Assembly (NCBI RefSeq): GCF_900186465.1
Contig: NZ_LT891959.1
Location: 580,921-644,920 of the forward strand
Direction: 5' to 3'
Length of the DNA: 64,000 nucleotides
DNA from: Centipeda felix
Lineage (GTDB): Bacteria; Bacillota; Negativicutes; Selenomonadales; Selenomonadaceae
In this document: in pieces, positions 32,465 through 46,511 of the stretch
Layout of the letters: every line of letters begins with the position of its first letter
Numbering within the stretch: position 1 is the first letter of the stretch
Position numbers and translations under genes: made by a program
Notes under the pieces: model-generated
Databases searched by the model: none
The model's input: the letters and a program-made list of their open reading frames with translations, nothing else
What the model was told of the DNA's origin: nothing

Positions 32465-32499
32465 CTACGGTGAATCATATAGGAAGCGAAGGGGATCTT

Positions 32500-33486
32500 A
32501 TGCACACATTCAAACATTTACTCACTGCTCTGCTGTTATGCACGCTCTGCATTATCCCGTACACGGTCTCTGCTGCCGATGCGAATGCAGACTACCGCGG
32601 CTATGTCTGGCGCATCGATGCGGCGGCGGGGGATGCGGCGGAGCTGCCGCACAATTTCCGCACGGCGGCATCACCGTTCCAAACGCGGAAAGACGCAGCA
32701 AAGTTCGGCGTTGACCCGAACTACACGCCCTCGCGGGAAGGACTGGACGCCCTGCCGCTCTCGGGGAGTGCGGAGTTCTCCGCCCCTGCCTTTCACGCGC
32801 TGCTGAACAATCTGCACGCGCGCACAGAGGGCGCGGTCTGCATCGTCGATCTGCGGCAGGAGTCGCACGGCTTCATGAACGGAAATGCCGTCAGTTGGTA
32901 CGGTAAGCACGACTGGGGCAACATCGGCAGGACGCAGCACGAGGCACTGCGCGACGAGAACACGCGCATCCACAGTGCACAGGGCAAAGATGTCGTGCTC
33001 GCTCATCTCGATAAGAAAAAGCAGCCCAAGAATCCGCAGACCGTTCGCGTCACTGAGGCGATGACGGAGCGCGAGCTGGTCGAGGGTGCGGGCGCGCGCT
33101 ACGTCCGTCTCGCTGTCACCGATCACAAATGGGCAGAGCCGCAGACCATCGACGCTTTTGTCGATCTCGTGAGGAAAATGCCTGCAGACACATGGATGCA
33201 CTTTCACTGTCAGGCAGGCAAGGGACGCACGACCAGCTTTATGGCGATGTACGATATGATGAAAAATCCCTCCGTCCCGCTGAAGGATATTCTCTATCGC
33301 CAGTACCTGCTCGGCGGGGCATACCTCGCCTATGACCCGGCCACGCAGCACGCGGCGACGGGATGGGAGGATGCAGACTACCACCACAAGACAGAGATGA
33401 TCGCAAAGTTCTACGACTACGTTCAGCAAAACCACGGGAACGGCTATGCCGTACCGTGGAGTACTTGGCTGAAGAAGAATCCATAA
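32500..33486 (+). CDS. Secreted PTP-like phytase (inositol polyphosphatase)
   Basis: 328-residue exported phosphatase. The signal peptide MHTFKHLLTALLLCTLCIIP leads to a likely cut after VSAADA. The protein-tyrosine-phosphatase loop HCQAGKGRTT (Cys nucleophile, Arg at the end) lies near residue 235, and VTDHKWAEPQTID carries the general-acid Asp. The opening ELPHNFRTA matches the PTP-like myo-inositol phosphatases of Selenomonas and relatives, where the loop reads HCEAGVGRTT. It probably removes phosphate from phytate or a similar substrate outside the inner membrane. Start ATG 32500 has AGGGG 5 nt upstream. It is a single-gene transcript ending at the hairpin 33497-33545. Confidence 0.88.
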   Translation: MHTFKHLLTALLLCTLCIIPYTVSAADANADYRGYVWRIDAAAGDAAELPHNFRTAASPFQTRKDAAKFGVDPNYTPSREGLDALPLSGSAEFSAPAFHALLNNLHARTEGAVCIVDLRQESHGFMNGNAVSWYGKHDWGNIGRTQHEALRDENTRIHSAQGKDVVLAHLDKKKQPKNPQTVRVTEAMTERELVEGAGARYVRLAVTDHKWAEPQTIDAFVDLVRKMPADTWMHFHCQAGKGRTTSFMAMYDMMKNPSVPLKDILYRQYLLGGAYLAYDPATQHAATGWEDADYHHKTEMIAKFYDYVQQNHGNGYAVPWSTWLKKNP

Positions 33487-37499: not shown

Positions 37500-37528
37500 T
37501 TGTCTCTTCTCCCGTCCTATGATATAAT
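37500..37528 (+). promoter_or_regulatory. Promoter of the P-type ATPase-like gene
   Basis: TTGTCT (37500-37505), 17 bp, TATAAT (37523-37528), about 38 nt before the TTG start. Confidence 0.7.
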
Positions 37529-37565
37529 GCCCGTGTAACAATCGTATGGCAGGAGCTGAGTATCC

Positions 37566-38927
37566 TTGAAAAAATTTCTTTCTTCCACGGTTCATTTTGT
37601 CCTCAGCGTTATTGTCGCAGCGGCGGCTGCGGGCTTCTGGTACACGACGGAAAACGTGAGTATCGAGGCGGCATCCGAGATCTTTCTCGGCGTTTTCCTC
37701 GCTGCATCGCCGATCCCATGGCTCGTGTCACGCTTGCTGATCGCCCTGCGGATCAAGCGACATCTGCGTGCGGATGGCATTGCATGCAGCCGCATGAGTG
37801 CACTTACCGAGCTCATGCACGTGGATACCATTGCCTTCAACCGCAACGGAACGCTGACGGAGGGGGATATCTTCATCTCGGCGCTCGTGCCCGAGGGCAT
37901 GACGCAGAGCTCGCTGCTCGCACTTGCCGCAAGTGCCGAACGCGACGCTCTCCATCCCTATGCTCAGGCACTCTACCACACTGCCGTCGAGCGCGGGCTG
38001 CACCTCACACGACACTCCGCCGCACGTGAGGAGGAGAGCTTCGGCGTAGAGGCACTGATCGTGCGTACACCCGTGCGCGTCGGCAAGAAAGAGTGGCTGC
38101 AGGAGGAAAACATCGAGATCAGCGCGGCACTCCTGACGCGCGCCGATCAGCTCGCAACGAGCGGGCAGTCGCCGCTCTTCGTCAGCTCAAGCAAGTACGC
38201 GCGCGGCATCATCGCCGTCCGCGACGATCTGCGCATGGAGGCAAAGCGTGCACTGAACGCCCTGCGTCAGCGCGGACTCTCCCTCGTCCTCCTCACGGGC
38301 GAGACGAAGCGTCTTGCCAACGCGACGGGCAAGGAACTGCACATCGCCGACGTGCGCTCCGATCTCACGGAGATGGACAAGGCACGCGAGATCCGTCTGC
38401 TGCAGTCGCGCGGTGCCATCGTCGCCATGGTGGGCGACCCGATCGCCGATCAGGCCGCTCTGCGCACGGCGGACATCGGCATCGGATGCCCGTCCACCCT
38501 CGTAAAGCCGCCCGCCGAAGCAGCGGCGGAGGAAACGGAGACAGATCCTCTGCGTGCCGAGCTGCTAAAGGGGCCGGACGGCACAGCGGCCGCCGCCGAG
38601 GTGGTCGAGCCGCTCATCCCCCCCGAGGACGCTGCCTACTTTGAGGCACAGACACGGCGCAATCAGGGCAAGATCGAGAACTATGTCCCCGACATCGCAC
38701 TGGACAGCGTCGGACTGCCGCGTCTCGTCACCCTGCTCGACGCAGGCGAAGCGGCACGCGTACGCGCTCGCCAGAATACGTGGCTCACCGCACTTTTCAT
38801 CGCGCTCTGCACACCGACGGCGGCAGGAGTCCTGCCGCTGTTCGATGGCCCGCTTCCCTATCCGTGGGTTGCCGGTGCACTCGCGGCGGTGGTCGGCGTA
38901 CAGGCAGTCAATGCCCTACGAAAATAA
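37566..38927 (+). CDS. Degenerate P1B-type ATPase-like protein lacking catalytic residues
   Basis: 453 residues, intact frame, TTG start with AGGAG 10 nt upstream. It aligns by eye with the C-terminal two thirds of heavy-metal P-type ATPases: two spans (residues 10-28 and 38-61, like M3-M4), then P and N domains, then two spans (405-425, 434-450, like M5-M6) ending VNALRK. Key residues are changed: the metal CPC is SPI (49-51), DKTGT is NRNGT (92-96; Asn for the phosphorylated Asp), TGD is TGE (244-246) and GDGxND is GDPIAD (290-295). HP (130-131) remains. The actuator domain and first spans are absent, and a ~70-residue acidic/Ala-rich insert precedes M5. It cannot be a normal pump; its place before cydABDC suggests a structural or regulatory role (inference). 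Confidence 0.85.
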   Translation: MKKFLSSTVHFVLSVIVAAAAAGFWYTTENVSIEAASEIFLGVFLAASPIPWLVSRLLIALRIKRHLRADGIACSRMSALTELMHVDTIAFNRNGTLTEGDIFISALVPEGMTQSSLLALAASAERDALHPYAQALYHTAVERGLHLTRHSAAREEESFGVEALIVRTPVRVGKKEWLQEENIEISAALLTRADQLATSGQSPLFVSSSKYARGIIAVRDDLRMEAKRALNALRQRGLSLVLLTGETKRLANATGKELHIADVRSDLTEMDKAREIRLLQSRGAIVAMVGDPIADQAALRTADIGIGCPSTLVKPPAEAAAEETETDPLRAELLKGPDGTAAAAEVVEPLIPPEDAAYFEAQTRRNQGKIENYVPDIALDSVGLPRLVTLLDAGEAARVRARQNTWLTALFIALCTPTAAGVLPLFDGPLPYPWVAGALAAVVGVQAVNALRK

Positions 38928-38967: not shown

Positions 38968-38996
38968 TTGTATTTCATATAAGCCTATGATATAAT
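38968..38996 (+). promoter_or_regulatory. cydABDC promoter
   Basis: TTGTAT (38968-38973), 17 bp, TATAAT (38991-38996), giving a leader of about 85 nt before cydA. Confidence 0.7.
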
Positions 38997-39010
38997 GCAG
39001 GGAATCGAGG

Positions 39011-39040
39011 GGCTTTTGTCACACGCCGTGGACAAAAGCC
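39011..39040 (+). promoter_or_regulatory. Leader hairpin upstream of cydA
   Basis: Perfect 10-bp stem GGCTTTTGTC / GACAAAAGCC with a 10-nt loop in the presumed cydA 5' UTR. It is not followed by a T-run, so it is not an ordinary terminator; it could be an mRNA stabiliser or a protein/RNA-controlled element, or an operator read as DNA. Confidence 0.55.
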
Positions 39041-39085
39041 GTTGCTGTTATTATCATAGGTATTATTTTTAGGAGGGATTTGGAC

Positions 39086-40456
39086 ATGGAAGCAGTGATG
39101 CTGTCGCGATGGCAGTTTGCAATCACTACCATCTATCACTTTCTCTTCGTCCCTGTCACACTCGGTATGGCGATCTTTGTCGCCCTGCTTGAGACGTGCT
39201 ACGTCAGGACGAAACGGCCAGAGTGGAAGAAGACCTGCCGAAAACTGCTGAACTTCTTCGGTACGCTCTTTCTCATCAACTTCGCGATGGGTGTCGTCAC
39301 AGGTCTGGTGCAGGAGTTCCAGTTCGGCATGAACTGGTCGGAGTATTCGCGCTTCATGGGCGACATCTTCGGCGCACCGCTCGCACTCGAGGCTCTCACG
39401 GCGTTCTTCCTCGAGTCCACCTTCCTCGGCATCTGGATGTTCGGCTGGGACAAGCTCTCGGAGAAGGCACACTGCGCCTGCATCTGGCTGGTCGCACTCG
39501 GCAGTAACCTGTCTGCCTTCTGGATTCTCGTCGCGAACTCCTTCATGCAGCATCCCGTCGGCTACGTGCTCGCCAACGGGCGCGCCGAGATGGCGAGCTT
39601 CGCGGAGCTCGTAACGAACCATTACATCCTCGGCGAGCAGTCCCACACGCTCTTTGCGGGCATCACGACCGCCGGCTTTGTCGTCATGGCGGTCTCCGCA
39701 TGGAAGCTGATGCACGACACGGAGTCGCGCTACGCGTTCACGCAGGCGATCAAGGCGGGTGCCATCTACACGCTCGTCGGCGTAGTCGGCGTCATTGCGA
39801 GCGGACATTTCCACACGCAGTACCTCGCACAGGCAAACCCGATGAAACTCGCCTCCATGGAGGCCCTCTGGGAGACGGAGGATCCTGCACCGTTTGCCGT
39901 TCTCGCCTACCCCAATATGGAAAAGGGGCAGAACGACTTCGAGATCACTATCCCCTATATGTTCACGATCATGGTGCATGATGGCCCCTCGGGTGAGGTG
40001 CGCGGCATCAACGATCTCCAGAAAGAGGCTGTGCAGAAGTATGGTGAGGGCGACTACCGTCCGCACGTCACGATGCTCTTCTACTCGTTCCGCGCGATGG
40101 TCGGCGCCGGCTTCTTCATGGTGCTCGTCTCGCTCGTCGTGCTCTACCTAACGAAGAAGGAACAGATTCTTTCGGCAAAGAAACTGCTCTACGCCCTGCC
40201 GTGGCTGGTCGTCATTCCGTTTATCGCCAATTCCTGCGGCTGGATCGTCGCAGAGATGGGGCGTCAGCCGTGGATCGTGGTTGGACTGCAGAAGACGGCT
40301 GATGCGGTCTCACCGAATCTGACCGCTGGGGAGATCTGGTTCACGATGATCGGCTTCACGGTGCTCTACCTGCTGCTGCTCATCACTGCGCTCTATCTCG
40401 CCTTCCGCTTCATCCGCCGCACGAAGATCACTCCTGCCATCGAAGGAGGGAAGTAA
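39086..40456 (+). CDS. cydA: Cytochrome bd ubiquinol/menaquinol oxidase subunit I
   Basis: Haem-bearing subunit of the high-affinity oxygen reductase in the inner membrane. The 456-residue protein has about nine spans, the N-terminal haem-ligand His in ITTIYHFLFVPVTLGM, the quinol-loop region after NDFEITIPY and the conserved MGRQPWIVVG. The Q loop is of the short type. Start ATG 39086 (MEAVMLSRWQF) has GGAGG 9 nt upstream; TTG 39080 is too close to the SD. First gene of cydABDC. Confidence 0.96.
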   Translation: MEAVMLSRWQFAITTIYHFLFVPVTLGMAIFVALLETCYVRTKRPEWKKTCRKLLNFFGTLFLINFAMGVVTGLVQEFQFGMNWSEYSRFMGDIFGAPLALEALTAFFLESTFLGIWMFGWDKLSEKAHCACIWLVALGSNLSAFWILVANSFMQHPVGYVLANGRAEMASFAELVTNHYILGEQSHTLFAGITTAGFVVMAVSAWKLMHDTESRYAFTQAIKAGAIYTLVGVVGVIASGHFHTQYLAQANPMKLASMEALWETEDPAPFAVLAYPNMEKGQNDFEITIPYMFTIMVHDGPSGEVRGINDLQKEAVQKYGEGDYRPHVTMLFYSFRAMVGAGFFMVLVSLVVLYLTKKEQILSAKKLLYALPWLVVIPFIANSCGWIVAEMGRQPWIVVGLQKTADAVSPNLTAGEIWFTMIGFTVLYLLLLITALYLAFRFIRRTKITPAIEGGK

Positions 40457-40458
40457 GA

Positions 40459-41475
40459 ATGGACTACAATATTCTTTGGTTCGTGCTGATCGTCGTCCTC
40501 TTCACGGGATTCTTCTTCCTCGAGGGTTTTGACTATGGCGTCGGCACGCTCCTCACACTCATCTCCGACAAGGAGAGCGACCGCTCTCAGCTCATCCGCA
40601 GCATAGGCCCTGTTTGGGACGGCAACGAGGTCTGGATGATTACGGCGGGCGGTGCCACGTTTGCGGCTTTCCCGCATGTCTATGCGACGATGTTCAGCAC
40701 CTTCTACATTGCGCTCTTCCTCATGCTCGCCGCCCTCATCCTGCGCGGCGTCGCCTTTGAGTTTCGCCATCATCGCGAGGATGAAGTATGGCAGCGCCGC
40801 TGGTCGTACGCACTTGCCTTCGGCAGCATCGTCCCCGCATTCCTCTGGGGCGTTGCGGTCACGAATCTGATCGCAGGGCTTCCCATTGGTGCGGACAAGG
40901 TCTATCAGGGCGGATTCTTTGATCTCCTGACGCCCTACACGATCGTCGGCGGCATCACGTTCGTTCTCGTCTTCGCGTTCCACGGCGCAGCATTCTTGCA
41001 GATGCGCCTGACCAGCACCTATCTGCTCGACCGCGCTCGCACGCTCGGTCTGAAGTTTGGCGTCGCTGCGGCGGTCCTTTACGTGATCTGCATGATCCTC
41101 ACCTACGTTGAGACCGACCTCTACCAGAGCACCGTCGCCACGGCGGCTCTCTTCCTCTCGGCGCTCTCTTTCGTGCTCGGCATCGGTGCTCTCTACAAGC
41201 GCGCCCATAAGGGTGCGTTCATCCTCGGCGCCCTCGCCATCGTCGGCACGACGGTCGGCTTCTTCGCCGGACTGTTCCCGCGTCTCATGGTCTCGAGCCT
41301 GAACTCCGGCTACAGTCTGACGATCTACAATGCGTCCTCGACGGAGTACACACTCTCCATCATGACCATTGCTGCCGGCATTCTTGTCCCCGTTGTCCTC
41401 TGCTATCAGATCTGGACGTACTACATCTTCCGCAAGCGCGTTTCTCCGAACGATTCGGGACATCAGGCATATTAA
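40459..41475 (+). CDS. cydB: Cytochrome bd oxidase subunit II
   Basis: Membrane partner of CydA. The 338-residue protein begins MDYNILWFVLIVVLFTGFFF and has FLEGFDYGVGTLL and GPVWDGNEVWMITAGGATFAAF, the family signature. GGAGG lies 9 nt before the ATG, which follows the cydA stop by 2 nt. Confidence 0.97.
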   Translation: MDYNILWFVLIVVLFTGFFFLEGFDYGVGTLLTLISDKESDRSQLIRSIGPVWDGNEVWMITAGGATFAAFPHVYATMFSTFYIALFLMLAALILRGVAFEFRHHREDEVWQRRWSYALAFGSIVPAFLWGVAVTNLIAGLPIGADKVYQGGFFDLLTPYTIVGGITFVLVFAFHGAAFLQMRLTSTYLLDRARTLGLKFGVAAAVLYVICMILTYVETDLYQSTVATAALFLSALSFVLGIGALYKRAHKGAFILGALAIVGTTVGFFAGLFPRLMVSSLNSGYSLTIYNASSTEYTLSIMTIAAGILVPVVLCYQIWTYYIFRKRVSPNDSGHQAY

Positions 41476-41483
41476 AGGAAACA

Positions 41484-43127
41484 ATGAAAAAAAGAAAGTC
41501 CATCCTGTTTCAAATGCTGCATTCGCAGCGGCGCAGCCTCTCCATTCGCGTTGCGGTCGAACTCCTGCACGGAGGGCTGACCATCCTCGCGGCATGGAAT
41601 ACGGCCGCCATTGTGAACACTGTATTTCTTGGGCACGGCGGACTTGCCGAAACAGCATCAGAGCTTCTGATGCTGTTTTTGTGCATTTTCGCCATGGCGC
41701 TCCTGCGCCTGCCAAAGAGCCGCATCGAGGCACAACTCTCCGATGATCTGCGGCTCTACTGCCGGCGTGCCCTCCACAGAGAGTTGCTTGCACATGGACA
41801 GAACGGTGCGGGTGTACTGACGCTTACGCTTGAGCGCGTCGATGCGCTCGACCCTTGGTTTCGCACTCTCCTGCCCACCATGATCGCAGGTGTCGTCATC
41901 ATCCCGCTCGTCCTGCTCGTGACGGCTGTCGTCGATCCGCTGTCGGCACTGCTCTTTCTGGTCACCCTGCCGATCGCGCCATTTCTCCTCTACCTCATCG
42001 GCAAGGCGACGCGCCGTGCCAGTGAGCGTCAATGGGATGAGATGCGTACGCTGACGGACGGATTCGGTGATCTGGTGCGCGCGGCGGCGACGCTTAAAAT
42101 CTTTCGCCGCGTCGATGCGGAGGGACATCATCTCGCGCAGATGAGCCATGCGTTCTCCGAGGCCTCGCTTGCCGTACTGCGGCTCGCCTTTGTCTCCTCC
42201 TTTGCACTGGAACTGATTACCACCCTGTCGATTGCCCTCATCGCGGTCTCCATCGGCCTGCGTCTCATGGACGGCGGCATGACCTTTCACGCGGCATTCT
42301 TCGTGCTCATCCTTGCGCCGCAGTTCTATCAGCCGCTGCGTGAGGGCGGCATTGCCTTCCATGCAGCGATGGATGCCGCGACGGCAGAGAAGGCACTTGC
42401 CCCCTACCTCGATGCACCGCCCTCTATCACGGGAACGCACGATCAGATTCTCGCCCCTCCCTCCGTACGCACGGAGGCGCTCACCTACCGCTATCCGCTG
42501 ACCGACGAGGCCGTTCTGACGGATCTCACGCTCTCCTTTCCCGCAGGAAAGTCCACCGTGATCGCAGGCGACAGCGGCAGCGGAAAATCGACGCTGCTCC
42601 TCCTCCTAGCGGGGCAGCGCCCTCCTTCGGATGGGATGATTATGCTCGCGGACGGTGCAGGAACAGCACACAGCTATGATCTCGCGCGTCTCACGGAGGA
42701 GACACGCACTGCGCTCATCACCTACGTCCCGCAGGAGCCGCATATCTTCGGTGCGAGCCTTGCGGAAAACGTGACGCTGTGGACGCGGGACACGGCGGAT
42801 GCCGAAATCACGGCGGCACTGGAGGCGGCGGCACTCGGCGACTTTTTGCGCGCGCTGCCCGATGGACTGCATACGCGCCTCGGCATGGGCGGCCATCCGC
42901 TTTCGGCAGGAGAACGTCACCGCCTCGGTCTGGCACGCGCCCTCTTTCAGGATCGCCCCATCGTCCTTCTGGACGAGGTGACGGCGGGGCTGGATGAGGA
43001 GACCGAGCGGTGCGTGATCGATGCCCTGACAGTGTTTTCACATCACCGCACGATGATTCTGACGGCGCACCGTCCTGCGCTCATCGCATGGGCAGACCAG
43101 GTCGTGACACTGGGAGGTGAGGCATGA
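41484..43127 (+). CDS. cydD: ABC exporter subunit CydD (cysteine/glutathione, cytochrome bd assembly)
   Basis: 547-residue half transporter: an N-terminal six-span domain (to about residue 320) and an ATPase domain with Walker A AGDSGSGKSTLL, signature LSAGERHRLGLARAL and Walker B PIVLLDEV. The family exports thiols and is needed for bd oxidase maturation. It starts 8 nt after cydB, with AAAGGAAA as SD, and overlaps cydC by 4 nt. Confidence 0.93.
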   Translation: MKKRKSILFQMLHSQRRSLSIRVAVELLHGGLTILAAWNTAAIVNTVFLGHGGLAETASELLMLFLCIFAMALLRLPKSRIEAQLSDDLRLYCRRALHRELLAHGQNGAGVLTLTLERVDALDPWFRTLLPTMIAGVVIIPLVLLVTAVVDPLSALLFLVTLPIAPFLLYLIGKATRRASERQWDEMRTLTDGFGDLVRAAATLKIFRRVDAEGHHLAQMSHAFSEASLAVLRLAFVSSFALELITTLSIALIAVSIGLRLMDGGMTFHAAFFVLILAPQFYQPLREGGIAFHAAMDAATAEKALAPYLDAPPSITGTHDQILAPPSVRTEALTYRYPLTDEAVLTDLTLSFPAGKSTVIAGDSGSGKSTLLLLLAGQRPPSDGMIMLADGAGTAHSYDLARLTEETRTALITYVPQEPHIFGASLAENVTLWTRDTADAEITAALEAAALGDFLRALPDGLHTRLGMGGHPLSAGERHRLGLARALFQDRPIVLLDEVTAGLDEETERCVIDALTVFSHHRTMILTAHRPALIAWADQVVTLGGEA

Positions 43128-44740
43128 TGACCACAATGCTCTTTCGGCTGCTCTCCATCGCCGCACCTGCGGCGGCACTCCCCGCCCTCCTCGCGGGATT
43201 CCTCGCGGCCGCGGCGGGCATTTCCCTCATTGCCTCTGCGGCGTGGATCATCGCCAGTGCGGCACTCGCGCCGCCCCTCTCGGCACTTGCCCTTGCCATT
43301 ACCTGCGTGCGGGCGTGCGGCATCGGGCGCGCCGTCTTTCGCTACCTGGAGCGCCTGCTCTCTCACCGTCTCGCCTTCGGCTGCTACGAGACGCTGCAGC
43401 AGGCGACCTACCGCCGCTCTGCCGCCGTCATTCCCATGCGAGAGGGCAACGTACGCGAGGGCGAGTTCCTCCACGATCTGCTGACGGGCTGTGAGACCCT
43501 GCGCGACTTCTACCTGCGCGCCGTCCCGCCGCCACTGATCGCCCTTGCCTTGGTGCTGCTCGCCTGTGCGGCTCTCCTGCCGCTCAGCATCCCTGCGGCC
43601 ACAGTCGTATTCCTGCTCTTTCTACTCCACATTGCGCTCCCGCTCTTCCTCCGCGAAACGGAACTGCGCGCGCAAAGTGCCGACTATCGCAGCAGCCTCC
43701 TCGATCAGATCGACGGGCGCACCGAGCTGCGCGCCGCCGGCAGTACACAGCATGCTCAGGCAGTGCTGGATGAGGCGGCGGCGACATTTCAGCGCGAGCG
43801 AACGGCACGAGGGCGGAAACGCGAGCAGCTCTTCACCCTGCTCGACGTCCTGCGGATCATCGTCTGGATCGCAGCCATCATCCTCCTCATCCCCCGCGTG
43901 ATCGAAGGGATCCTCACGGGCATCCAGTACGCGGTCTGGGTTCTCGCCCTCGAGGCGGTACTCGCCGAGCTCCGCCCGATCCCCCCCGCCGTTCTCGGCG
44001 CACAAGAATCGGCGCGTGCCGCACGACACATTCTCCCATCAGACGGCGAGCACACACAGCCCGCCTCCATCGCACCCCCTTCCGAAAAATCAGCAAACGC
44101 ACCTCTGATCGAGGCGAAACACCTCGTCTTCGGCTATCATACAGGCATCCCCATTGTGCAGAACCTCAGCCTTACGATCCACCGCGGCGAGCACACGGCC
44201 ATCATCGGTGAGAGCGGCGCAGGCAAGACGACGCTGGCGAGCCTTCTGCTCCGCCTCTGGGAGCCCGATGCGGGCACGATCTCCTACGATGGTATTCCCC
44301 ATACGAAGCTCCCTCTCGAAGCGTCGCGCACCTATTTTGGTGCTGCCCTACAGGGCAGCTGGCTCTTCTCTGCCTCCATACGGGACAACTTTCTGCGCCT
44401 GCGCGGTGATATCTCTGAGGCAGCAATATGGCACGCACTCGAAACGGCGCAGCTCGCGGACGTCGTTCGGGCTCTGCCCGCAGGGCTCGACGAGCCGCTC
44501 GGAATGAACGCCTCCCGTCTTTCGGGGGGACAGCGCAGCCGCCTGCTCACCGCACTTGCACTCGCGGGCGATGCGCCGATCCTGCTCCTCGATGAGCCGA
44601 CAGCAGGGCTCGATGCTGCCTGCGGTACACGCCTCATCACATCCGTCTTGGCAGATGCCGATGCACGCGGCGCAACGCTCATCGTCATCACACACGATCT
44701 GCCCCTTTTGAATCAAATGAAACAGGTGATAAAACTATGA
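43124..44740 (+). CDS. cydC: ABC exporter subunit CydC
   Basis: 538-residue partner of CydD. Six spans lie in the first ~300 residues, then Walker A IGESGAGKTTLASLLLRLW, signature LSGGQRSRLLTAL and Walker B APILLLDEPTAGLD. The ATG overlaps the cydD stop (ATGA), and the gene's own stop overlaps the next gene in the same way, so the cluster is translated as a unit. Confidence 0.93.
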   Translation: MMTTMLFRLLSIAAPAAALPALLAGFLAAAAGISLIASAAWIIASAALAPPLSALALAITCVRACGIGRAVFRYLERLLSHRLAFGCYETLQQATYRRSAAVIPMREGNVREGEFLHDLLTGCETLRDFYLRAVPPPLIALALVLLACAALLPLSIPAATVVFLLFLLHIALPLFLRETELRAQSADYRSSLLDQIDGRTELRAAGSTQHAQAVLDEAAATFQRERTARGRKREQLFTLLDVLRIIVWIAAIILLIPRVIEGILTGIQYAVWVLALEAVLAELRPIPPAVLGAQESARAARHILPSDGEHTQPASIAPPSEKSANAPLIEAKHLVFGYHTGIPIVQNLSLTIHRGEHTAIIGESGAGKTTLASLLLRLWEPDAGTISYDGIPHTKLPLEASRTYFGAALQGSWLFSASIRDNFLRLRGDISEAAIWHALETAQLADVVRALPAGLDEPLGMNASRLSGGQRSRLLTALALAGDAPILLLDEPTAGLDAACGTRLITSVLADADARGATLIVITHDLPLLNQMKQVIKL

Positions 44741-45453
44741 CGCCGGAAACATTTCATGAACGCATCCATCTCGTTATCGACCGTCTCGGAAAAAACGCCC
44801 CGCCCTACGAGCTCTTTGCCGGCGGTGTGGAGGACTGGCACGCACGGGCGCGGCTCGCCCATTTTCTCGCACAGATGCCGGAGCATCGCGCAGAGGCCAT
44901 CGAATTCTTTCAAAGTGTTATGGATGCCGAGGTGAACGAGGAACTCGCGCAGGACGTAGAGGAGAAAGTCTACGCCATGCAGGGGCTCTCGGCACTTGAG
45001 GCGGAGGAAAAGGAAACACAGGAAGCGGCACTCGAGCACATCAATCTTGCGATTGAATGTGCCGAGGGAACGGATTTTCTCTACAAGTACATCCTGCGCG
45101 GTGAACTGTGGGCGGATCGGTGGAACCTCATGCACAAACTCGGCATGACCGAGGACGCCGAGGCGGAGGCCGATGAGCGCATTTCCGCCTTTGAGGGACT
45201 GGAGGATGCCGTCCCGCACAACAGCTACCTGTACTACGGCTACCGATTCAAGGCACATCTCGCCGCCGAGCGCGGTGTCGTCCTCATCGCAAAGGACTAC
45301 ATGCACATGGCGATTCACGCGATGGAGATCCCGCCTGCCTACGAGCAGCCACTTGCTGAGGCGTTTGCACAGACACACGAAAACGCCTCATGGATTCTGC
45401 GCGAGATCGACCGCGCCACTCCCGATCCTGCACAGCTTCACTGGGATATTTAA
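44737..45453 (+). CDS. Unassigned helical-repeat (TPR-like) protein of the cyd operon
   Basis: 238 residues, no signal peptide and no membrane span. The sequence is acidic and almost wholly helical in look; stretches such as EAALEHINLAIECAEGTDFL and EDAEAEADERISAFEGLEDA resemble TPR helices, but I cannot place canonical repeats with certainty. Its ATG overlaps the cydC stop (ATGA), so it is translationally coupled to the cytochrome bd genes. No known cyd accessory protein (CydX, CydH and similar are tiny membrane peptides) looks like it. A role in bd oxidase assembly is possible but is an inference from position. Confidence 0.7.
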   Translation: MTPETFHERIHLVIDRLGKNAPPYELFAGGVEDWHARARLAHFLAQMPEHRAEAIEFFQSVMDAEVNEELAQDVEEKVYAMQGLSALEAEEKETQEAALEHINLAIECAEGTDFLYKYILRGELWADRWNLMHKLGMTEDAEAEADERISAFEGLEDAVPHNSYLYYGYRFKAHLAAERGVVLIAKDYMHMAIHAMEIPPAYEQPLAEAFAQTHENASWILREIDRATPDPAQLHWDI

Positions 45454-45932: not shown

Positions 45933-45960
45933 GGTTCCAAAAGAAAGGAGTGTGGTCATC

Positions 45961-46233
45961 ATGTCAACCGTCCCTACTCAAATAAGAATTGACCGGAACA
46001 TAAAAGAACAGGCTAGCGCATTGTTCTCTGGGCTGGGCCTAGATATGTCCGGCGCCGTTAATATGTTTCTCCATCAGTGTGTCCTTCGTGGAGGCATCCC
46101 ATTTTCTATCGAAATGCCCCATTATAAACAAAGCACCTTGGCGGCTATGGAAGAAGCAAGAAAAATCTCCCGCAACCCGGATGTCCCTAGCTATGACAAC
46201 ATGGACGACTTGAAGAAGGCATTGGAAGAATGA
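45961..46233 (+). CDS. RelB/DinJ family antitoxin
   Basis: 90-residue antitoxin. A ribbon-helix-helix N-terminus (VPTQIRIDRNIKEQASALF, LGLDMSGAVNMFLHQCVLRG) is typical of DinJ, followed by a C-terminal toxin-binding tail rich in Asp/Glu/Lys. Start ATG 45961 (MSTVPTQ) has AAAGGAG upstream; the in-frame GTG at 45952 abuts the SD. It overlaps the toxin gene by 4 nt and would repress its own promoter, as in known DinJ-YafQ pairs. Confidence 0.9.
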   Translation: MSTVPTQIRIDRNIKEQASALFSGLGLDMSGAVNMFLHQCVLRGGIPFSIEMPHYKQSTLAAMEEARKISRNPDVPSYDNMDDLKKALEE

Positions 46234-46511
46234 CCTATCACATCAAGTTCACCAACGCTTATAAGAAAAGTTACAAGCGTGCCAAGAAACGCGGCTTGAA
46301 TCTCAAGCTACTGGATAATGTTGTTGAAGCATTGGGACAGGGGCACAAGCTAGATGCCAAATACCGTGACCATGCACTTCATGGCAATTGGGAGGGATTT
46401 CGCGAGTGCCATATTCAACCGGATTGGTTGTTGATATACCTCGTTGAAAACGACGTCCTAACCTTGACCCTAGTCGAAACTGGAACCCATTCAGACATAT
46501 TCGATGAATAA
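46230..46511 (+). CDS. YafQ-type mRNA interferase toxin
   Basis: 93 residues of the RelE/ParE superfamily. YHIKFTNAYKKSYKRAKKRG opens the fold. LDAKYRDHALHGNWEGFREC carries the YafQ-conserved His and Asp, and the C-terminal HSDIFDE holds the last His, all expected at the ribosome-dependent nuclease site. The ATG overlaps the antitoxin stop. It is AT-richer than the nuo and cyd genes on either side. Confidence 0.9.
   Translation: MTYHIKFTNAYKKSYKRAKKRGLNLKLLDNVVEALGQGHKLDAKYRDHALHGNWEGFRECHIQPDWLLIYLVENDVLTLTLVETGTHSDIFDE

Follow-up and report, generated by a model that had tools for sequence, protein, structure and literature searches.

A catalytically dead P1B-type ATPase homologue maintained under purifying selection in the Selenomonadaceae

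The window, a 64 000-nucleotide stretch of the Centipeda felix genome, contains on its forward strand a gene (37566..38927) for a 453-residue pseudo-P1B-ATPase, a dead relative of the copper exporter CopA that was recognized from its open reading frame, motifs, homology, dN/dS, tree placement and structural model. Its catalytic residues are lost while its dN/dS lies well below 1, which makes it a pseudoenzyme under selection, and constraint across its domains is inverted relative to the intact CopA of the same genus. By descent and fold, as judged from sequence and a predicted model, it is a P1B-type ATPase homologue. Our favored and reasonably probable explanation is that it acts through its membrane-tethered nucleotide-binding domain, as a nucleotide-responsive regulator or scaffold, where we infer both the nucleotide binding and the partner. 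A preliminary description of the window had proposed a maintained, catalytically dead P1B-ATPase homologue, and open frames, purifying selection and kept expression signals bear this out.

The gene starts with TTG, and its stop-to-stop frame of 455 codons exceeds the 453-codon ORF by only two, leaving no upstream room for an actuator (A) domain. Alignment to intact CopA gives the domain order M3-M4, P, N, P and M5-M6, with M1-M2 and the A domain (TGE) absent; the missing actuator domain and M1-M2 spans were both part of the preliminary description, and the motifs of the full-length frame likewise read as claimed there. Where a functional pump has the phosphorylated Asp of DKTGT, the CPC of M4 and the GDGxND hinge, the window protein has Asn92 (AFNRNGTLT), ASPI and GDPIAD, and the TGD motif has become LTGE. 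SPI stands for CPC at residues 48–50, within the helices matching CopA M3 and M4 (residues 2–69, 37569..37772 on the forward strand, like all features of the gene; AlphaFold2 helices and alignment). Motif reading places the former phosphorylation loop FNRNGTLT at residues 91–98 (37836..37859) and the degenerate hinge at residues 290–295 (38433..38450). The nucleotide-binding (N) domain (residues 105–214, 37878..38207) is the slowest-evolving part, as delimited by alignment and domain rates. After the P-domain core comes an acidic, low-confidence insert (residues 313–374, 38502..38687; alignment, pLDDT and dN/dS) that differs in length between genera, includes stretches with pLDDT under 50 and has a dN/dS of 0.258 in the window's genus. 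Helices matching M5-M6 (residues 384–451, 38715..38918; alignment and model) precede the protein end, NALRK.

Profile comparisons placed the protein in the P-type family at a distance from its working members. PF00702 matched at E 4.3e-16 and the P1B model TIGR01525 at E 5.1e-50, with 170.9 bits against a cut-off of 346.25; the cut-off of the general P-type model TIGR01494 was passed (95.8 vs 62.3), and among NCBIfam models no equivalog cut-off was. The AlphaFold2 model, built from a 21-row alignment, has a mean pLDDT of 85.7 and a pTM of 0.73. In the comparison with CopA that the preliminary description had proposed, it matched CopA P+N structures with Z ∼32 over 264–265 residues (3a1e: Z 32.4 over 265) and whole CopA structures with Z ∼21–26 over 385–394 residues. 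Both the cytosolic fold and the four-helix anchor (M3-M6) are predicted to be intact.

The nearest named relatives belong to the oral genera Selenomonas and Centipeda, S. flueggei ATCC 43531 standing at 92%. When 60 relatives were searched, each of the 14 genomes of the window's genus (g1), the window's own included, proved to carry the dead gene. We then surveyed the family by a profile search of 189 Selenomonadaceae genomes, with best matches listed, and read 110 fetched loci. Among the best matches listed, degenerate homologues occurred in 23 of the 30 genera searched, well outside the strain itself. Intact CopA, with CPC, DKTGT and, where the contig reaches, GDGxND, was the best match in four genera (g9, g15, g23, and g24). 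Close relatives with an intact DKTGT, which the preliminary description would have taken as a sign of recent decay, were found only in these four other genera. No degenerate form was detected among the best matches listed for g8, g10, and g22, which score like the second CopA discussed below (the ispE locus of g8 was not among the loci read). Genus g12 was represented by 18 of 66 genomes in the 80 regions fetched after this search, and in its genomes G024 and G105 the best matches were no better than the second CopA. Outside the family, five of the best seven class-level matches were read (L180–L184, from G352, G312, G332, G370, and G256; G362 and G348 were left out); none was degenerate, and all carried DKTGT, CPC, and GDGIND. 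A broken ATPase outside the family (G058, L065) consists of two CopA-like pieces and was rejected as a member of the dead-pump family.

The P-type ATPase mechanism rests on one Asp, and this residue is lost nearly throughout. Across 104 degenerate rows, which include the window and omit L094 because its 5' part is missing or broken, the phosphorylated Asp is kept in one, that of G031 (DRSG). This G031 member (L053, 7344–9287) has nonetheless lost CPC and GDGxND and lacks the A domain. The replacements are Gly (26), Ser (24), Asn (17), Ala (15), Pro (14), and others. The Asn rows are those of all 14 g1 genomes together with single rows from g7, g16, and g50; Asn92 is fixed in the 14 genomes of the genus, where it is encoded by both AAC and AAT. 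The expectation that relatives would share the N92-type substitution therefore failed outside the genus, where the Asp is lost almost everywhere but to Gly, Ser, Ala, Pro, and other residues. Both Cys of CPC are kept in none of the 104 rows, the Lys of DKTGT in 36 and the following Thr in five. All rows but that of the split gene L090 keep D303 (103 of 104), and this conservation, with a P-domain fold that is intact in the model, would be compatible with catalysis by other residues, such as a HAD-type phosphatase or phosphotransferase activity. Loss of the nucleophilic Asp in 103 of 104 rows, degradation of GDGxND and a P domain that is less constrained than the N domain in the genus make this reading very improbable.

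Expression signals are kept as well. A consensus scan placed a promoter, TTGTCT-17-TATAAT with TG before the −10 element, at 37500..37528 (+), and a Shine-Dalgarno sequence, AGGAG, lies at 37551..37555 (+) before the TTG start. The own promoter and Shine-Dalgarno sequence noted in the preliminary description are present throughout the genus: the extended −10 T[A/G]TGnTATAAT and an AGGAG or GGGAG occur in all 14 genomes, with TTTGTC ahead of the extended −10 in 13 and TTTGTT in G010, and 13 of the genes start with TTG and one with GTG. A separate cydA promoter (TTGTAT-17-TATAAT, 38968..38996, +; read from the sequence) was present in all 13 genomes of the genus examined, with G010 left out and L036 dropped for its run of N. 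The window has just two copies of a 12-base element, TATGATATAATG, one at 37518 before the dead gene and the other at 38986 before cydA. A potential hairpin in the cydA leader (∼39010–39040, GGCTTTTGTC...GACAAAAGCC) was discarded, its energy z being −1.30 and its sequence not conserved in the genus.

Selection on the gene is not relaxed: dN/dS was 0.036–0.256 in 23 degenerate pairs from 10 genera, well below 1 as the preliminary description had anticipated. Between the window gene and its nearest relative, G010, dN/dS was 0.075, compared with 0.031–0.152 for six neighboring genes in the same pair, and recent decay of the window gene is ruled out by dN/dS. In that pair, dS of the dead gene was 0.534 against 0.214–0.357 in the six neighbors.

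We compared rates across domains using 13 dead-gene sequences of g1 (L036, with a run of N, was dropped) and, as intact controls from the same genus, 13 CopA genes, each with CPC, DKTG, and GDGVND, and seven Zn-type pump genes. In the dead protein, dN/dS was 0.032 in the N domain (site bootstrap 0.019–0.048) and 0.130 in the P domain (0.096–0.170), with 0.12–0.15 in the P parts, 0.10 in M4 and 0.221 in M5-M6. The controls gave the opposite order, with N at 0.232 vs P at 0.116 in CopA and N at 0.153 vs P at 0.049 in the Zn-type pumps. N was the fastest of the compared domains common to the dead protein in both controls, and P-domain values were 0.05–0.12; the stretch before M3 of the Zn-type pumps, lacking in the dead protein, was faster than N, at 0.186 vs 0.153. 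The N/P ratio was 0.24 (site bootstrap 0.13–0.42) in the dead protein, 1.99 (1.26–3.23) in CopA, and 3.09 (1.49–7.87) in the Zn-type pumps. M3 values of CopA and g7, stretched by an alignment artefact, were not used.

Of the domains compared, N also had the lowest rate in g7, g16 (with L094 and L120 dropped), and g21; it reached 0.035 in g7, a genus with no cydA detected, and bootstrap intervals were undefined for P in g7 and N in g21, where pS was near saturation. An exception was g3, with M5-M6 (0.104) lower than N (0.146), and in g12, where the P-b rate was undefined, N (0.132) was level with M4 (0.137). Of the 47 positions conserved at ≥ 75% over 22 genera (genus-weighted; L094 and L090 dropped), the N domain holds 29. 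Between genus representatives, identity was highest in N in the dead set (43%) and lowest in N in the intact set (54%). Recombination was rejected as the source of the uniform N domain: pS there is hardly lower (0.507 vs 0.51–0.69 elsewhere), so recent exchange does not explain its slow evolution.

These rates bear on whether the gene is a pseudogene in slow decay, or a relic that stays in frame and persists through its position, as the missing catalytic motifs, metal site and A domain, a between-genus divergence faster than that of intact CopA, and the broken look of some frames might suggest. The G153 copy (L187, 9129–10904), for instance, is split into two frames, by a frameshift or an assembly error. 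Against decay stand the dN/dS values in 23 pairs from 10 genera, the open frames and same-position relatives throughout the family, an N domain that evolves more slowly in g1 than in the intact CopA control, and the promoter and Shine-Dalgarno sequence kept in the genus. We consider a relic barely credible.

The residues retained in the N domain are consistent with nucleotide binding in much of the family. In the window protein, E125, H130, and G160 are kept, the first two at positions that we assign as the P1B ATP-site Glu and His, and S158 replaces the first Gly of GxG. Over the 104 degenerate rows, the equivalents of E125 and H130 are each kept in 96, the first and second Gly of GxG in 78 and 104, and E162 and Gly173 each in 104. 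The complete E, H, G, G set is present in 66 of 104 rows, in six of 18 for g12, in neither of two for g5, and in none of 14 for g1, where the first Gly is Ser158 in every row. ATP binding is thus likely in many members, going by the full set in 66 rows, and uncertain in the window protein itself, given its lack in all g1 rows. The two GxG-loop glycines of ATP7B are described as close to ATP (PMC3203118).

The strongest candidate for a partner surface is the fourth N-domain helix, AALLTRADQLAT (residues 187–198, 38124..38159, +; model and conservation), with its family signature of D194, kept in 98 of 104 degenerate rows, and Q195, kept in 99. The 30 codons around it (181–210) have a dN/dS of 0.013 in the genus. 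The same D and Q occur in four of six intact rows (g9, g15, and g23) and are absent from g24, and the second CopA of the genus reads differently at this helix. Their presence in the intact CopA of g9, g15, and g23 hints that a surface role predates the loss of catalysis. One tentative reading, to which we give less than even credence, is that the pump moonlighted before its death: the N domain would have acquired an additional role in binding at a time when copper was still being pumped and, after another CopA took over export, catalysis would have been lost and only the binding role left. If so, a P-type ATPase would have been turned into a nucleotide sensor or scaffold at the membrane throughout the family.

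Gene order in the genus is conserved on one side. The right-hand neighbors, seen across the genus, are cydA, cydB, cydD, and cydC (39080..44740, +), and the other side holds OpuBC or fbp genes. After cydC, the window encodes a conserved 238-aa TPR-like protein (44737..45453, +), whose gene adjoins the dead gene in the cyd-less genomes G017, G078, G023, and G033. The window copy has no Pfam match and the L061 copy has weak TPR matches. This protein was found in 37 of 60 genomes, and it was rejected as an obligate partner because it was not detected in the dead-gene genomes G014, G019, and G030. Two further features were observed nearby. A reading frame with an HCQAGKGRT stretch (32470–33486, +), presumably similar to a PTP-type phytase or phosphatase, adjoins the locus in most of the genus, and two short overlapping genes that we take to be RelB-like and YafQ-like (45952–46511, +) follow the cyd operon, G010 having a different pair there that is 43–47% identical.

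Across the family, the fetched flanks show ispE close to the gene, on one side or the other, in 20 of the 27 genera with loci read, and no neighbor is conserved across all genomes with the dead gene. In both g24 genomes, an intact CopA occupies the same slot, with ispE on one side and cydABDC on the other, so that, in at least one genus, a true CopA takes the place of the dead gene, and the cyd neighborhood looks like an ancestral gene order. An intact CopA also adjoins ispE in g15, neither neighbor is near it in g9, and the g23 contig ends in the gene. We infer an ancestral order of prs-glmU-gntR-ispE, diverging from the ATPase gene, followed by cydABDC and the TPR-like gene.

This neighborhood had led the preliminary description to suggest an assembly, chaperone or regulatory factor for cytochrome bd, acting in CydAB/CydDC maturation or state sensing. 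At least 35 of the 104 fetched degenerate loci, and the window as well, have the dead gene directly upstream of cydA; they come from eight genera, the count is a lower bound as some loci end too early, and the arrangement holds in all 14 genomes of g1. The predicted cyd synteny thus held within the genus. It did not hold family-wide. At E values up to 1e-40, cydA was found in 155 of the 189 genomes, which covers 22 of the 30 genera, with none detected in any genome of g2, g5, g7, g9, g11, g13, g46, and g51, yet seven of these eight genera, all but g9, carry the dead gene. Genome completeness is high in several cydA-less cases (G019 100%, G017 99%, G025 98%, and G023 94%), and g7 constrains its N domain as tightly without cydA as g1 does (0.035 and 0.032). 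Conversely, g8, g10, and g22 have cydA and no detected dead gene, and cydA directly adjoins ispE in G034. Within g1, the two genes have separate promoters. Because the dead gene occurs in cydA-less genera and cydA without the dead gene, co-occurrence with cydAB fails both ways and a bd role is rejected as the general function: it could apply in some lineages and cannot be the reason for retention across the family, and overall we regard a bd factor as improbable. In G022, an unrelated frame with iron-sulfur-like Cys motifs, recognized by eye, lies between ispE and cydA, with no ATPase remnant found.

Phylogeny points to a single loss. In a careful tree of 49 rows, a branch with support of 98/94 separates the 38 degenerate representatives from the intact CopA rows, among which the Zn-type outgroup fell. 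A quick tree of 113 rows resolved the deep branching less clearly and placed the g6 forms beside intact ones. One loss of catalysis is the simplest account and, given the long deep branches, a single origin is likely rather than proven.

The loss coincides with the presence of another pump. A second-CopA query (878 aa) matched away from the dead gene in all 29 dead-gene genomes of the 60-genome set (14 of the genus and 15 others), the matches in G023 and G030 being partial at contig ends and motifs having been read in 13 of the 29 (G001–G013). Where the slot lineage is represented by an intact CopA, in six genomes, that gene was itself the best match, the next ones were only 34–37% identical, and no second CopA was found. 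The pattern fits replacement, with pumping lost once another CopA provided for copper export. The window genome's own second CopA (L004, G000:C14:256422-259106) has one in-frame TGA in the assembly.

The same pattern, 29 of 29 vs none of six, could also mean that the dead relative is a regulatory partner that pairs with or tunes the working pump, and its N and P domains and M3-M6 are retained. Redundancy explains the pattern without any contact, however; in G020, G022, G024, and G034 a second CopA is present although no dead gene was detected; the dead protein's M5-M6 evolve fast in g1 (0.221); and the second CopA of the window genome itself carries the in-frame TGA. We regard such a partnership as unlikely.

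Under the explanation that we favor, a pseudo-ATPase acting through its tethered N domain, the ancestor would have been an ordinary Cu+-exporting CopA encoded between ispE and cydABDC, and a second CopA elsewhere would cover copper export in most of the family. The common ancestor of the degenerate lineage would have lost catalysis, with the actuator domain and metal site also lost and, in many lineages, M1-M2 too. What remains would be a four-helix membrane anchor (M3-M6) carrying the P-domain scaffold and the N domain. The latter, now the most constrained part, may bind ATP or another nucleotide without the hydrolysis of the P-type cycle, and the conserved face of its fourth helix may contact a putative partner. 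That selection holds the N domain more tightly here than in the functional pumps of this genus suggests that the domain has an independent task on which selection can act. Since intact and dead states share a slot in related genera, the change from pump to pseudoenzyme can be followed, and the locus is a warning that neighbors can mislead the annotation of dead genes as copper pumps or cytochrome bd factors.

Among the matches listed in an open-literature search on dead or pseudo P-type ATPases or the cyd link, no P1B-ATPase pseudoenzyme appeared and this family was not described. TMEM94/ERMA was set aside as a precedent, being presented as a working Mg2+ transporter. The Cu+-exporting CopA ATPases (TIGR01511/TIGR01525; 3a1c, 3a1e, 3j08, 7r0g, and 3rfu) are homologous to the dead protein over M3-M6, P, and N, whereas the dead protein is without the A domain, M1-M2, CPC, the phosphorylatable Asp and GDGxND and scores below the TIGR01525 cut-off. 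We take D1027 of ATP7B and D533 of ATP13A1 to be the phosphorylated Asp of those pumps. In laboratory dead P-type ATPases (ATP7B C983S/C985S/D1027A, 7xuk and 7xun; ATP13A1 D533N, 9jbr), the Asp change is engineered into a pump, whereas the window protein is natural, truncated, and conserved. Pseudoenzymes in general keep their fold, lose catalytic residues and remain under selection; the dead pump shares all three traits and represents a pseudoenzyme version of a family already known, not a novel fold or system.
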